From: Chitinophaga pinensis | Lineage (GTDB): Bacteria > Bacteroidota > Bacteroidia > Flavobacteriales_D > Crocinitomicaceae | DNA length: 64,000 nt | Reading direction: 5' to 3' | Assembly: GCA_945883825.1 (NCBI GenBank) | Contig: CAMCYF010000001.1 | Span: forward strand, 186,001-250,000 | Shown: positions 7,127 through 37,715 of the stretch, in pieces | Layout: every line of letters begins with the position of its first letter | Position numbering within the stretch: the stretch's first letter is position 1 | Notes under the pieces: model-generated | Database searches by the model: none | The model's input: only the letters and a program-made list of their open reading frames with translations | Told to the model about the DNA's origin: nothing | Position numbers and translations under genes: made by a program

Positions 7127-9210
7127 TAAGAGCCATACCACCTTCTAAGAAACCATTCTCCTGAAAGAAATAAGAAAATAAGGATAAAGATTACGATGTA
7201 CTCTATAAGATCGTCAAATGAAGTTTCTGCATAGCTAATGGTAGTAATATCTTTTCTATTCGATATATCTTCTATGGTTTTTTTATAATCTTTTAAAAGA
7301 TAAAATTTGCCATTTGATTGTTTTGAAAGTTGTTTCATCACACCTTGATTAGCGTTTGATTCCGTTTTTTCAATTTGAATATCTTCGACTAGAAAATTTC
7401 CTTTTTTGGAATAGGATTTCCCATTAAAAGTTGTCTTTGCACGCCAAGAATAATTCCCTGACTTTAGTTTACCGAGTGCTAATTTGTAACTTGTTCCTAC
7501 TAAACCAAATTGAGATTTATATTTTTTTCCTTTTTGATCTGTTATTTCAATTGAAATTTTTGGAGTAGTAATTGGTTCTAAAGATGAATTATAAAAAGAT
7601 GCATTCACTATAACTTCTTCATCAATTGTAAATCGATTTGGAAATTCAATTCTTAATCCAGCTCCTTGTTGCTTTACGAGAAGGTAATTTGTGATTTTAC
7701 TAAAAAATTCATTAAAGGCGTCTTGATTAGAATTTCTTAAATAGTCGTTTATTCGCCATCGCCAAAGACCTTCTCCATACAAAACTCCCGATTTAGCATT
7801 GTTTTGATTTAAGAAAAACAACAATGGCTCTTTTTTTGTAATTGATCCAATACGTTGATTTAACAATACTTCATTATTTCCATTGATACTAATTGTTCCA
7901 AATTTGCAAGTTAAAGGAGGGAAAAAATCAATTGCTTCAACTGTTTTGTCACTCAATTCAAAAGCAGAAAATGATTTATTTATCACAGCCTGGCTTTCAT
8001 CTGTCTGATTTCCTGCAGCAACTGTAATGCCGATATTTAATTTAGAAATAGCACCACTACTTGTATTCGGTCCAATTATAAAAAAAATCGGAATGTTTTT
8101 CTGCTTTATAAGCTGTAGCGTATTTTGATCAAAATTTATTCCTGGTTCATGCCAAATGATAAGATCTACTTCATCAAGAGATTTATTCCACTCAGAATAT
8201 AAACTTGTAATTACTTCACTGCCTTCATATTCATCTAAAACTGACTTAAGTGCTGATATATCTGGATGCGGGGCACCACTAAGCAATAAAACCTTATTTC
8301 TTGAATCAATTACTTCTACATAAAAACTGCGTTGATTATTTTTTAAGGTATACTCACCATCTATGGCTTCAAGTTTTACTGTGTAGGTTTGGAATCCAAT
8401 ATTATCTGCTTTTAAAATAAAATTAGCTTCTGTAAAATCATATTTCCCAGATTCATAATTAAGTACTTGACTTGCAATTTTTTGCCCATTCTTGTAAATA
8501 CTAATATTGGCATTTCTTTTTCCTATTTTGAATGCTTCGACATCAACCTCTACAGGAAATTCATTGTTTAAGAAAGCAATATCATTTGCCGTAATATGTT
8601 TAATAAAATGGTCTTTTTTTGGAATTGTATCCCCAACAGTTAATGTGAAAATTGGGGTTAAGCTTATTTTTTCTGCTGCATAACTAGGATTAGCTCCTAC
8701 ATTGTAATTCCCATCTGAAATAAAAGCAATTCCCCCAATATTTCGATTGTAATAATCAATATTTATTTTTTCAAACCCAAGTTCTAAAGCCGAGGTATTT
8801 TCATTAAATTTAAGGGGATCATTGGAAACTATTGTGCCAACATTTAGTTCTATTAATTCAAATCGATCTTTAAATTTTTCACTTAACTCCTTTTTGAAAT
8901 TTTGAATTTGACCTTTAATAATTGAACTGTCTTTGTAATTCAACATAGATGAAGAATTGTCAACTAAGCTTATGAAAACAGGTTTTTCTTCTCTGTAATT
9001 AGTAGCCTGTAAAATAATTCCTAAAAGAAGAAATAAGATTAAAAATAAAGAAGAAAATCTAAGGACTTGTAATGTCAATCGTTGATTTGTTTTTAATTCC
9101 TTTACCCAACCTTTGTTTTGATAAATCAGAAAAGTTAATCCAAGCGAAAGGAAAAATATGGGGATAAGCCAGAAAAATGAGTGATCAGTAATTAATTTCA
9201 TCGTTAACAA
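7123..9210 (-). CDS. VWA-like domain membrane protein (BatA-like architecture)
   Basis: Two N-terminal TM segments, VFISLVDNSSSML (MIDAS-like), GGIAFISDGNYN, C-terminal TM IVIFILIFLFLSGEWFLRRWYGSY. Confidence 0.65.
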   Translation of the reverse strand: MLTMKLITDHSFFWLIPIFFLSLGLTFLIYQNKGWVKELKTNQRLTLQVLRFSSLFLILFLLLGIILQATNYREEKPVFISLVDNSSSMLNYKDSSIIKGQIQNFKKELSEKFKDRFELIELNVGTIVSNDPLKFNENTSALELGFEKINIDYYNRNIGGIAFISDGNYNVGANPSYAAEKISLTPIFTLTVGDTIPKKDHFIKHITANDIAFLNNEFPVEVDVEAFKIGKRNANISIYKNGQKIASQVLNYESGKYDFTEANFILKADNIGFQTYTVKLEAIDGEYTLKNNQRSFYVEVIDSRNKVLLLSGAPHPDISALKSVLDEYEGSEVITSLYSEWNKSLDEVDLIIWHEPGINFDQNTLQLIKQKNIPIFFIIGPNTSSGAISKLNIGITVAAGNQTDESQAVINKSFSAFELSDKTVEAIDFFPPLTCKFGTISINGNNEVLLNQRIGSITKKEPLLFFLNQNNAKSGVLYGEGLWRWRINDYLRNSNQDAFNEFFSKITNYLLVKQQGAGLRIEFPNRFTIDEEVIVNASFYNSSLEPITTPKISIEITDQKGKKYKSQFGLVGTSYKLALGKLKSGNYSWRAKTTFNGKSYSKKGNFLVEDIQIEKTESNANQGVMKQLSKQSNGKFYLLKDYKKTIEDISNRKDITTISYAETSFDDLIEYIVIFILIFLFLSGEWFLRRWYGSY

Positions 9211-33706: not shown

Positions 33707-34396
33707 CTATTCTCCAATTGGGTCTGTAATACCATATTTACTTTTTAAAGCAGTACAATCAAATTTATTATCACCACACTCCAAATATGTTAAAGAATTA
33801 TTTCTACTTAGATCCAAGCTGCTAAGTTGATTTTCATCACAATTCAACCAAGTTAAAGAAGTATTTTTACTTAAATCAAGGCTACTGAATTGATTATTAA
33901 AACAACCCAATTCAGTTAAAGCACTATTTTTACTTAAATCCAAACTGGTAAGTTGATTTCCCCCACAATTCAACCAAGATAAAGCAGATGCACCACTTAT
34001 ATTCAAGCTGATGAGTTGATTAGCATAACAAAACAAGGAGTATAAAGCACTATTTTTACTTACATCTAAGCTTGTGAGTGAATTATAACTACAATCCAAA
34101 ACAGTTAAAGCAGTATTTTTACTTACATCTAAGCTCGTGAGTTGATTACCTTTGCAATCCAAATAAGTTAAAGTAGTAAAGGCTTCTATACCTTTTAAAT
34201 TAGAAATACTCATATCTCTACAATCAATAGTATCATTAAAGGCACTTGCTTCACTAATTTGAATTTCCTTATCTCTATTGGTATTTATAGCTTTATTTCC
34301 AACTAAATATGCTTTAAAGCTAGAATCTGGTATGTTTACAATTTGTCCAAAGCCAAATATTGGTAAAGGGAGCAAAATAAGCAGTAGTTTTTTCAC
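33707..34396 (-). CDS. secreted leucine-rich repeat protein, no recognisable T9SS domain
   Basis: Signal peptide; repeats LTSLDVSKNTALTVLDCSYNS; paralogous N-terminus to 34525..35583 (NIPDSSFKAYLVGNKAINTNRDKEIQISEASAF). Confidence 0.85.
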   Translation of the reverse strand: MKKLLLILLPLPIFGFGQIVNIPDSSFKAYLVGNKAINTNRDKEIQISEASAFNDTIDCRDMSISNLKGIEAFTTLTYLDCKGNQLTSLDVSKNTALTVLDCSYNSLTSLDVSKNSALYSLFCYANQLISLNISGASALSWLNCGGNQLTSLDLSKNSALTELGCFNNQFSSLDLSKNTSLTWLNCDENQLSSLDLSRNNSLTYLECGDNKFDCTALKSKYGITDPIGE

Positions 34397-34500
34397 AGGT
34401 TTTTTTTATCAAATATAAAGTAAAAAGTTAAATCACAAGGGATGGTAGTTTATGGAGGAACTTTGTGAGGGTTAAACAAAACAAAAAAAAGTACCCCAAA

Positions 34501-34554
34501 GATGCTCTGTATAAAATTAATTTTTTATTCCTTCATAATCTTTAGTACTTCTTG
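34501..34554. repeat. 54-bp direct repeat copy 2 (3' end of T9SS LRR gene)
   Basis: Matches 32166-32219 with one mismatch; spans codons KIMKE* of the LRR protein. Confidence 0.9.
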
Positions 34555-35583
34555 TTTATTTCCGGATATTATATTCAAGAAATAAACACCAGGTTTTATT
34601 GAAGCCATACTAAATTTAGTAGCTTTTGTATCTAAAACTTTTACCACTTTACCATTCATATCGGTAAGACTTAAAGAAGAAACTATTCCTAATAATTCCA
34701 AACCTGTAATGGTGAAATCACCATTTGTAGGATTAGGGTATAACATTAGGATATTTCTTTCATTAATATCTAAAATACCTGCTCCACTGCAGTTTAAACT
34801 AAAAGATGCTGTAGCATCTATATCATCAGACCAATTAGCATTACTAAAAGCTACATTATCTACTTCTATGCAGCTTAGATTTGGGTTAACTTCAGCATTA
34901 AAATAAACCATATTAATGTTGTTACCATTTTTTACATCTAAACTTGTTAAATTATTACCAGAACAAGACAAATAGTAAAGTGTAGTACAACCCGATACAT
35001 CTAAACTTGTTAATGAACTATAACCACAATCCAAATAAATAAGTGCAGTACAAATAGATACATCTAAACTTGTTAAATTATTAGTACCACAATCCAAATA
35101 AGTAAGTGCAGTACAAGTAGATACATCTAAACTTGTTAATTGATTATAATAACAAGCCAAATTAGTAAGTGCTGTACAAGTAGATACATCTAAACTTGTC
35201 AAATTATTAGTAGAACAATACAAATCAGTAAGTGCAGAACAAGTAGATACATCTAAACTTGTTAATTGATTATCCGAACAATACAAATCAGTAAGTGCAG
35301 AACAAGTAGATACATCTAAACTCGTTAATTGATTATAAGGACAAGACAAAGTAGTAAGTGATACAAAAGCCTCAATACCTGTTAAATTAGAAATATTCAT
35401 ATAACCACAATCAATAATGCCATTAAAGGCACTTGCTTCACTTACTTGTATCTGATTATCTCCATTGGTATTTATAGCTGTATTGTTAACTAAATATGCT
35501 TTAAAGATAGCATCAGGTATGTTTACATTTTGTCCAAAGCCAAACAATGGTAGAGCAAGAAGTAGTAGAAGAAGTAGTTTCAT
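34525..35583 (-). CDS. secreted leucine-rich repeat protein with T9SS type A sorting domain
   Basis: Signal peptide; seven or more LTSLDVSTCTALTxLxCxxNx repeats; CTD ILMLYPNPTNGDFTITGLELL...IKPGVYFLNIISGNKQEVLKIMKE. Confidence 0.92.
   Translation of the reverse strand: MKLLLLLLLALPLFGFGQNVNIPDAIFKAYLVNNTAINTNGDNQIQVSEASAFNGIIDCGYMNISNLTGIEAFVSLTTLSCPYNQLTSLDVSTCSALTDLYCSDNQLTSLDVSTCSALTDLYCSTNNLTSLDVSTCTALTNLACYYNQLTSLDVSTCTALTYLDCGTNNLTSLDVSICTALIYLDCGYSSLTSLDVSGCTTLYYLSCSGNNLTSLDVKNGNNINMVYFNAEVNPNLSCIEVDNVAFSNANWSDDIDATASFSLNCSGAGILDINERNILMLYPNPTNGDFTITGLELLGIVSSLSLTDMNGKVVKVLDTKATKFSMASIKPGVYFLNIISGNKQEVLKIMKE
34935..35350 (-). repeat. In-gene tandem 63-bp (21 aa) LRR repeats
   Basis: Repeated ACATCTAAACTTGTTAATTGATTA..AAATHAGTAAGTGCWGTACAAGTAGAT blocks. 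Confidence 0.9.
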
Positions 35584-35631: not shown

Positions 35632-35818
35632 TTACAAATATTTAACCACAGAATTAATAAGATTTTGGTTCATCTTATCTACTATATCATTATCAAACTG
35701 CTCTAAATAAATACCTGTAACACTATTTCCATACTCATGTCCTAGTGCTTCTGCTATTAAATCTTTAGAATACCCAAGTTGTTTTGCAACATTCGCGTAA
35801 CTATACCTGAAAACAGAT
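35632..35818 (-). pseudogene. Tyrosine recombinase (integrase) C-terminal remnant
   Basis: Minus-strand translation ASVFRYSYANVAKQLGYSKDLIAEALGHEYGNSVTGIYLEQFDNDIVDKMNQNLINSVVKYL*: R..H-x-x-G..Y catalytic tail of a Bacteroidota phage-type integrase; in-frame stop just upstream. Confidence 0.85.
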
Positions 35819-35823
35819 GCCTT

Positions 35824-35857
35824 CTTCGGCTACATTTCATTTCACTCAAGATAAACT
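35824..35857. repeat. 34-bp dispersed direct repeat copy A
   Basis: CTTCGGCTaCATTTCATTTCaCTCAaGATAAACT; 3 mismatches to 37457-37490. Confidence 0.85.
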
Positions 35858-35953
35858 CCGAATAGATAGAACAGGATTTGCATCAATGAAATAAATTAAT
35901 TTTACCAAAATTACCCTCTAATTTCACAGGACTTTTTTCTTTAATTAATTAGG

Positions 35954-35961
35954 TATATTTG
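35954..35961 (+). promoter_or_regulatory. Candidate -7 box TATATTTG upstream of yhcG-like gene
   Basis: TAnnTTTG match; no good -33 TTG seen. Confidence 0.35.
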
Positions 35962-36078
35962 TTCAAATCAAACTACTTAATTTGATAACTGGAGAAATGG
36001 AATCACAAATAGATAGGATATGGGAGTCCTTTTTACCTGCAGTATCATCAATTTTGAAAACTTATTGAAATAAAACAG

Positions 36079-37068
36079 ATGGAGTTACAAAAACAGTTTA
36101 CAGAAATTACTTCCCTCATTGCTTCTGCAAAGTCCAGAGCTTACCAAGCTGTAAATAAAGAGTTAGTTACCTTGTATTGGCATGTTGGAGAATATGTTAG
36201 CAAACAAGTTAATTCAAAAACTTGGGGTGAATCTGTGGTACAAGAATTAGCAGATTACATTCAAAAATATGAGCCCAATATTAAGGGATTCTCTGCTCAA
36301 AATATTTGGAGAATGAAGCAGTTTTATGAAACGTATGCTGAAAATACAAAACTCTCACCACTAGTGAGAGAATTAACATGGACAAATAATTTAATCATCT
36401 TAACATGTGAATCTGAACAAGAAAAAGAGTTTTACCTTAGGATGTCAAGCAAAGAAAAATGGTCAAAATCTGAATTGCAAAGACAGATAAACAGCTCTTA
36501 TTATGAAAGGGTTATGTTAGCAGATGCAAAACTCTCACCACTGTCGAGAGAATTGCCACAAGATGTAAGCAACACATTTAAAGATACCTATGTTTTTGAG
36601 TTATTGCACCTACCAGAGGAACACCAAGAAAAGGATTTACAGAAAGCAATAGCCCGCAACATAACCAAGTTTTTACTGGAATTTGGTAGAGATTTTGCCT
36701 TTATGGGTGAAGAATACCCATTACAAGTAGGAAACCAGGATTTTGCAATAGATTTAATGTTCTACAATAGAAGTCTAAACTGTATGATAGCCATTGAATT
36801 GAAAAATGAACGGTTTAAACCTGAGCATTTAGGACAACTTAATTTCTATTTAGAAGCATTGGATAAAGACATTAAAAAAGAGCATGAAAACCCAAGTATA
36901 GGAATACTTTTATGTAAGGGAAAAGATGATACGGTGGTAGAATATGCATTAAACAGAAGTCTTTCTCCAACTTTGGTGGCAGATTACAAAACCAAACTAC
37001 CAAACAAAGCATTGCTCCAACAAAAATGGGAAGAAGTATTGGCTAACCTTGAAAATGAAGAGAAATAG
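36079..37068 (+). CDS. YhcG/DUF1016 family PDDEXK nuclease domain protein
   Basis: N-terminal SAKSRAYQAVNKELVTLYWHVGEYVSKQV...FSAQNIWRMKQFYETY; C-terminal FAFMGEEYPLQVGNQDFAIDLMFYNRSLNCMIAIELKNERFKPEHLGQLNFYL nuclease core. Confidence 0.94.
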   Translation: MELQKQFTEITSLIASAKSRAYQAVNKELVTLYWHVGEYVSKQVNSKTWGESVVQELADYIQKYEPNIKGFSAQNIWRMKQFYETYAENTKLSPLVRELTWTNNLIILTCESEQEKEFYLRMSSKEKWSKSELQRQINSSYYERVMLADAKLSPLSRELPQDVSNTFKDTYVFELLHLPEEHQEKDLQKAIARNITKFLLEFGRDFAFMGEEYPLQVGNQDFAIDLMFYNRSLNCMIAIELKNERFKPEHLGQLNFYLEALDKDIKKEHENPSIGILLCKGKDDTVVEYALNRSLSPTLVADYKTKLPNKALLQQKWEEVLANLENEEK

Positions 37069-37104
37069 GCTTAAGAAATAGGGTAGTGGGATTGCTTGAA
37101 TCAA

Positions 37105-37268
37105 TAGACTTAGCTACAAGGCTATGAGATAATCCTTCGGTAGGTACTCCAAACTTATAAAGCCATTATACAAGCTTGTTTTCTGTTTGCAGTCAGTCGA
37201 AAGACTACAGGATAAGTACAATCCTTTTTTACTCTACGCTTGTCTAGAACTAGGTTTAATGTTGCCAT
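37105..37268 (-). pseudogene. Tyrosine recombinase (integrase) N-terminal remnant, frameshifted
   Basis: Minus-strand ATG at 37266-37268: MATLNLVLDKRRVKKDCTYPVVFRLTANRKQACIMAL* (stop at 37155); the next frame continues GFISLEYLPKDYLIAL*, resembling the arm-binding domain of Bacteroidota integrases. Confidence 0.8.
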
Positions 37269-37337
37269 TTGTATTAAAATTATGGCATCCTACTCACATA
37301 AATTTGCATACATATTTGCAAGCATTTGGTCTTTTTT

Positions 37338-37377
37338 AGTGCTTTTCAGTACTTTTTTAGCACTTTTTGGTAGTTTT
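37338..37377. promoter_or_regulatory. Four helically phased 9-bp repeats, candidate integrase arm-type sites
   Basis: AGTGCTTTT(37338) AGTACTTTT(37348) AGCACTTTT(37359) GGTAGTTTT(37369): spacing 10/11/10 bp. Confidence 0.5.
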
Positions 37378-37395
37378 CACCCAAAACTAAAACCC

Positions 37396-37434
37396 ATAAA
37401 AAACCCAGTAAAGTCTTATCTATACTGGGTTCTG
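37396..37434 (-). terminator. Minus-strand terminator next to the truncated tRNA-Asn 3' end
   Basis: Minus-strand AACCCAGTA-n-TACTGGGTTTTTTAT. Confidence 0.75.
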
Positions 37435-37437
37435 TTT

Positions 37438-37454
37438 GCTCCTCCTCTTGGACT
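37438..37454. repeat. att-like 17-bp direct repeat of the tRNA-Asn 3' end
   Basis: GCTCCTCCTCTTGGACT identical to 37544-37560 in the tRNA. Confidence 0.85.
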
Positions 37455-37456
37455 TC

Positions 37457-37490
37457 CTTCGGCTTCATTTCATTTCGCTCAGGATAAACT
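37457..37490. repeat. 34-bp dispersed direct repeat copy B
   Basis: CTTCGGCTtCATTTCATTTCgCTCAgGATAAACT; see 35824-35857. Confidence 0.85.
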
Positions 37491-37543: not shown

Positions 37544-37544
37544 G

Positions 37545-37618
37545 CTCCTCCTCTTGGACTCGAACCAAGGACCCTCTGATTAACAGTCAGATGCTCTAAC
37601 CGGCTGAGCTAAGGAGGA
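37545..37618 (-). tRNA. tRNA-Asn (GTT)
   Basis: Minus-strand TCCTCCTTAGCTCAGCCGGTTAGAGCATCTGACTGTTAATCAGAGGGTCCTTGGTTCGAGTCCAAGAGGAGGAG; full cloverleaf, anticodon GTT, G discriminator. Confidence 0.95.
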
Positions 37619-37715
37619 ATTTCCCTCAAAAATTGAGAGTGCAAATATAAAAAATTATTTTAAAAATTTGAAATAAAAGCTAAAAATTATTAGTCTTCTT
37701 TTTATTCTAATTTAT

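Follow-up and report, generated by a model that had tools for sequence, protein, structure and literature searches.

The window, i.e., the whole 64,000-nucleotide stretch of DNA analysed, is part of a 278-kb contig in a genome of 2.16 Mb, assembled in 46 contigs with a completeness of 99.8%; judging by its relatives, the genome belongs to the Flavobacteriales. Along the window, a C-terminal piece of an integrase is followed by yhcG, an N-terminal integrase piece, an att scar and tRNA-Asn.

Integrase remnants and the attachment scar at tRNA-Asn

The features of the locus are as follows:

35632-35814, minus strand: C-terminal integrase fragment, from about residue 341 to the stop (81% identity to the integrase of the sister genome G008, 90% to those of G085 and G167)
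35824-35857, plus strand: left copy of the repeat D6, 34 bp, bordering the yhcG module on its left (91% identity to the right copy)
35954-35961, plus strand: TATATTTG, a promoter-like -7 box (same box in L007)
35982-36033, plus strand: 5' remnant of hsdM (type I methylase), about 16 codons (80-82% DNA identity over 51 bp to the hsdM starts of G008 and G011)
36079-37068, plus strand: yhcG, intact, 329 aa (DUF1016_N and YhcG_C PD-(D/E)xK nuclease, by domain matches)
37069-37166, plus strand: downstream end of the yhcG module, common to L007 and L009 (by alignment)
37268-37167, minus strand: N-terminal integrase fragment, residues 1-34 (by translation and match to intact integrases)
37294-37431: element end between the integrase start and att (a copy with 96% identity lies next to tRNA-Val on contig C9 of this genome)
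37438-37454: att scar, where the 3' end of tRNA-Asn is repeated (17 bp, identical to 37544-37560; 0.02 matches expected)
37457-37490, plus strand: right copy of D6, 34 bp, adjoining the att scar
37544-37618, minus strand: tRNA-Asn (gtt), the integration target

An earlier note on this DNA had described integrase ends flanking an intact yhcG on the opposite strand; both fragments translate as described, and the 329-aa frame is intact. The N piece (minus strand, 37268-37167) reads MATLNLVLDKRRVKKDCTYPVVFRLTANRKQACI, and the C piece (minus strand, 35814-35635, about 60 residues) reads VFRYSYANVAKQLGYSKDLIAEALGHEYGNSVTGIYLEQFDNDIVDKMNQNLINSVVKYL, beginning at VFRYSYAN (approximately residue 341). 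Both pieces are homologous to one full-length family of Bacteroidota tyrosine recombinases (Arm-DNA-bind_5, Phage_int_SAM_5, Phage_integrase). In single-locus tblastn comparisons with the 398-aa integrase of G008, the N piece matched with E 8e-9 (60% identity over residues 1-30) and the C piece with E 3e-30 (81%), in agreement with the earlier assignment of both fragments to one integrase family and to an integrative element at tRNA-Asn. The C piece was also recovered at E=4e-26 in a whole-genome protein search; the matches of the fragments to integrase ends are not due to chance. Other integrases of the same genome were considered as the source of the fragments and rejected, being poor matches. 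About 306 central residues (approximately 35-340) are absent from the window, and the locus contains neither a complete core-binding and catalytic domain nor a functional integrase. The second Arg, the His and the Tyr nucleophile of the tyrosine recombinase should fall within the C piece, with the first Arg outside it. The N piece stops at about residue 34; beyond this point (37166/37167), the sequence resembles the yhcG module found in other genomes.

The tRNA 3' end is duplicated, as in mobile elements integrated at tRNAs, and the integrase is located at this 3' end, in the same position as in sister genomes. The 17-bp att copy and the several tRNA 3' copies that are found inside 900 bp in L009 are independent signs of repeated integration. 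The L009 copies of the tRNA-Asn 3' end (7581-8160) hold short palindromes, such as TCCCGCAAGTGCGGGA, in their tRNA-like part. Between the integrase start and the scar, the element end (37294-37431) contains the direct repeats AAATTTGCAT/ATATTTGCAAG, which are possible arm sites, and a terminator-like hairpin.

The two D6 copies at this locus are the only ones in the genome, and the D6 core occurs in the genomes of L007 and L009 at this locus only. The core is absent from six sister genomes and from the genomes of L008 and L010, and viral contigs hold no copies of D6. Given the two copies and the absence of the core from the six sisters, a genome-wide interspersed repeat was rejected. The simplest reading is that D6 is the left end of these elements; it is the least explained part of the locus.

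Several observations concern the surroundings and other sites of the same genome. The left (distal) boundary of the tRNA-Asn island was searched for and not found. Window positions 37619-37715 lack ssb, which lies between FKBP and tRNA-Asn in several sisters (L117, L119, L121, L133). Two adjacent leucine-rich-repeat genes (33707-35583) have a 300-bp stretch in common at 77% identity, and the longer one ends in a T9SS sorting tail; similar genes occur in the tRNA-Val island. At that tRNA-Val (L123 4500-7853; G000:C9:42500-45853), the 96% copy of the 138-bp element end is found without an integrase of this family and is followed by serine-hydrolase-like and leucine-rich-repeat proteins. The element-end sequence found at tRNA-Asn and tRNA-Val also occurs as two direct copies (~95 bp) around a cluster of ~9.6 kb (L124 5080-14863; G000:C10:41079-50862), which encodes a large helicase matching MkoA in PADLOC, a DarT-domain protein of 1708 aa and a macro-domain protein, and has the appearance of a defence element with components similar to DarTG.

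The yhcG gene and the remnant of hsdM

The protein encoded by yhcG matches DUF1016_N (1.8e-42) and YhcG_C (1.2e-56), and the D...ELK motif is visible on reading the sequence. The earlier view of YhcG as a candidate defence nuclease is borne out by a full-length PADLOC match to the candidate defence family PDC-S02 (1.3e-126). Window positions 35845-37166 are 86% identical to L007 and L009, two metagenome-assembled genomes in which the module is also located at tRNA-Asn. At four-fold degenerate sites, the identity is 72% in yhcG, compared to ~33-35% in FKBP and speE; therefore, yhcG was shared horizontally after these lineages split. The dN/dS of yhcG between the window and L007 is 0.05, and the protein is under strong purifying selection despite its decayed surroundings. 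It is the only gene at the scar that is kept under selection. Judging from its family, neighbourhood and selection, the most likely role of YhcG is that of a restriction or anti-phage DNA nuclease, acting alone or with restriction proteins encoded elsewhere. Among plasmid and phage records, yhcG has distant matches only. To the left of the module, L007 and L009 carry other integrase C-terminal remnants (in L009 a very short one, identified by eye), and the N piece is absent in both.

Upstream of yhcG, positions 35982-36033 encode ITGEMESQIDRIWESF, which corresponds to the type I methylase start in G008 and G011. This 5' remnant of hsdM is all that the locus has of a type I restriction-modification set (hsdM, hsdS, hsdR). 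The short stretch past the hsdM start, PAVSSILKTY, does not match the end of HsdM in the Flavobacterium bernardetii locus (L010), in which hsdM is directly upstream of yhcG. The -7 promoter consensus of Bacteroidota is TAnnTTTG, and the box TATATTTG also precedes hsdM in two sister elements (L125, L126). The module looks like an hsdM-yhcG restriction locus in which nearly all of hsdM was deleted, with yhcG left behind the old promoter; we infer that yhcG took this promoter over after the loss of hsdM.

The integrase family in sister genomes

We surveyed 60 relatives by DNA search and 86 genomes of the genus by protein search. These surveys found a tyrosine recombinase of ~398 residues whose two ends match the window fragments. 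The intact gene lies directly beside tRNA-Asn in five sisters (G008, G011, G078, G080, G088), with the same FKBP beside the tRNA, and with speE as well where the stretch extends that far; an intact integrase without yhcG at the sister loci is the state that the earlier note had in mind, and the checks that it put forward had a positive outcome. The family is also found at tRNA-Val (G085, G094, G015, G078) and, as fragments, at tRNA-Arg (G100, G034). Besides the window, broken tRNA-Asn copies are present in G024 (residues 1-192), G094 (approximately 1-168) and G030 (~22 recognisable residues); therefore, a broken integrase beside a tRNA is common in the genus. A type IIG restriction-methylase directly follows the broken integrase in G024, and an open reading frame with a type I methylase-like start, identified by eye, is within a few kilobases of it in G030. 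Across the genus, breaks are frequent in the integrases of this family at tRNA-Asn, tRNA-Val and tRNA-Arg, and some of the breaks have restriction genes nearby. At tRNA-Val of G078 (L145 1489-2916; G078:C7), integrase residues 1 to ~299-313 are in frame with an unrelated C-terminal sequence, and the fused frame is open over 476 residues.

Origin of the locus

The locus is an ordinary decayed defence island, and we consider it fairly probable that elements integrated serially at tRNA-Asn and that deletions then left the present scar. In this scheme, elements of a single tyrosine-recombinase family would enter at the 3' end of tRNA-Asn, with the integrase coming to lie beside the tRNA and the cargo, in this case yhcG together with type I restriction genes, placed towards the far att' end. 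With at least two such elements stacked at this tRNA, the tandem order would be integrase A, att', hsdM, yhcG, cargo, integrase B and tRNA. A deletion of the N-terminal part of integrase A together with att' would bring the outer C-terminus up against the inner element's left end, and a deletion of cargo together with the C-terminal part of integrase B would join the inner yhcG end to its own integrase N-terminus. Transcription of yhcG would probably start from the former hsdM promoter, and selection would have retained the gene, most likely for a nuclease activity directed against phages or serving DNA restriction.

The organisation of related elements is consistent with this sequence of events. 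In L008 (yhcG 89% identical), att' (a partial copy of tRNA-Asn) is followed by yhcG, other cargo, an XRE regulator and an integrase C-terminus leaving the locus; in G008 and G011, the order is att', radC and hsdM, with hsdM oriented as in the window. Two such elements in tandem, with two deletions, would yield the order and strands of the pieces in the window. The hsdM start ahead of yhcG, the adjacency of hsdM and yhcG in L010, and the other C-terminal remnants beside the module in L007 and L009, where the N piece is absent, also speak for this origin, as do the horizontal sharing of yhcG and the selection on it. It should be noted that at least two deletions are required, which counts against serial integration; that a search for a remnant of att' between the C piece and yhcG gave nothing better than shuffled sequences; and that no intact stacked pair of elements was seen in the sister genomes.

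Two integrases probably contributed the N and C pieces, as suggested by their identities: compared to the integrases of G085 and G167 (L132, L147), the C piece shows 90% identity and the N piece only 59%, whereas in all four intact integrase pairs with a C identity of at least 86%, the N identity is at least 82%. This comparison supports two source integrases, short of proof, given that the fragments are short and that the support comes from close pairs, the correlation between N and C identities over all references being uninformative.

The earlier note had proposed that yhcG was cargo that inserted into, and immobilised, an integrative element. Mobility by the element's own integrase is indeed lost; insertion into a single integrase is not established and is the less likely part of that proposal. 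The version in which a yhcG module inserted or recombined into one integrase gene, replaced its centre and immobilised the element would be in keeping with two pieces of one family, in matching orientation and the right order, at a site where sisters hold one intact integrase. We nonetheless regard it as rather unlikely: ~306 codons were lost, which a plain insertion would not remove; the edges of the module have neither terminal inverted repeats nor a target duplication; in related elements, yhcG (L008) and hsdM occupy the att' end, remote from the integrase; and the integrases closest to the N piece are not those closest to the C piece. A search for transposon-like ends flanking the yhcG module was also negative.

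D6 invites another reading, in which yhcG and its promoter form a minimal cassette bounded by D6 that lands, independently of tyrosine recombinases, where integrase genes next to tRNAs have their 3' ends. Three genomes have D6 or its core at the borders of the module and lack it elsewhere, and the left neighbours are differing C-terminal integrase remnants. The right copy, however, also adjoins the att scar and hence can be read as an element end, the cassette has no transposase or other recombinase of its own, and viral contigs yield no further copies, so that we hold this origin to be improbable. Still more improbable is a misassembly of unrelated pieces. The genome is a draft in 46 contigs, with a short repeat at the left junction, as such an artefact would have it; against this, the contig is 278 kb long, D6 occurs only twice in the genome, and in the separately assembled L007 and L009 this tRNA is accompanied by the same module, again with integrase remnants to its left.

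Our literature search yielded no paper that deals with this integrase family or with this locus. SGI1 is known to form tandem island arrays at its attachment site in thdF (PMC2297512), and CGI48 is described as a composite island at tRNA-Trp (PMC8978831). Both resemble our locus in being tyrosine-recombinase elements with a duplicated attachment sequence and repeated integration at one site; those islands are intact and large, whereas nearly all of our locus is deleted and the integrase ends are remnants. Under serial integration with deletions, the locus is a clear worked example of a defence gene outliving its carrier mobile element.

Within the genus, the closest parallel is the tRNA-Asn element of G024 (L122 6585-12320), which has the same tRNA, the same integrase family and a broken integrase followed by a restriction gene; it differs in keeping integrase residues 1-192 and att', in carrying a type IIG enzyme in place of yhcG and in having no C-terminal piece. 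The type I restriction locus of Flavobacterium bernardetii (L010) shares the adjacency of hsdM and a yhcG that is 78% identical to that of the window, whereas its hsdM and hsdS are complete and the window keeps the hsdM start only. Compared to PDC-S02 (YhcG/DUF1016, PADLOC), which the protein matches over its full length, the gene here is alone beside a tRNA, outside any intact restriction operon. A stand-alone, strongly selected YhcG, severed from its type I restriction neighbours, is a useful case for asking whether YhcG can act on its own.
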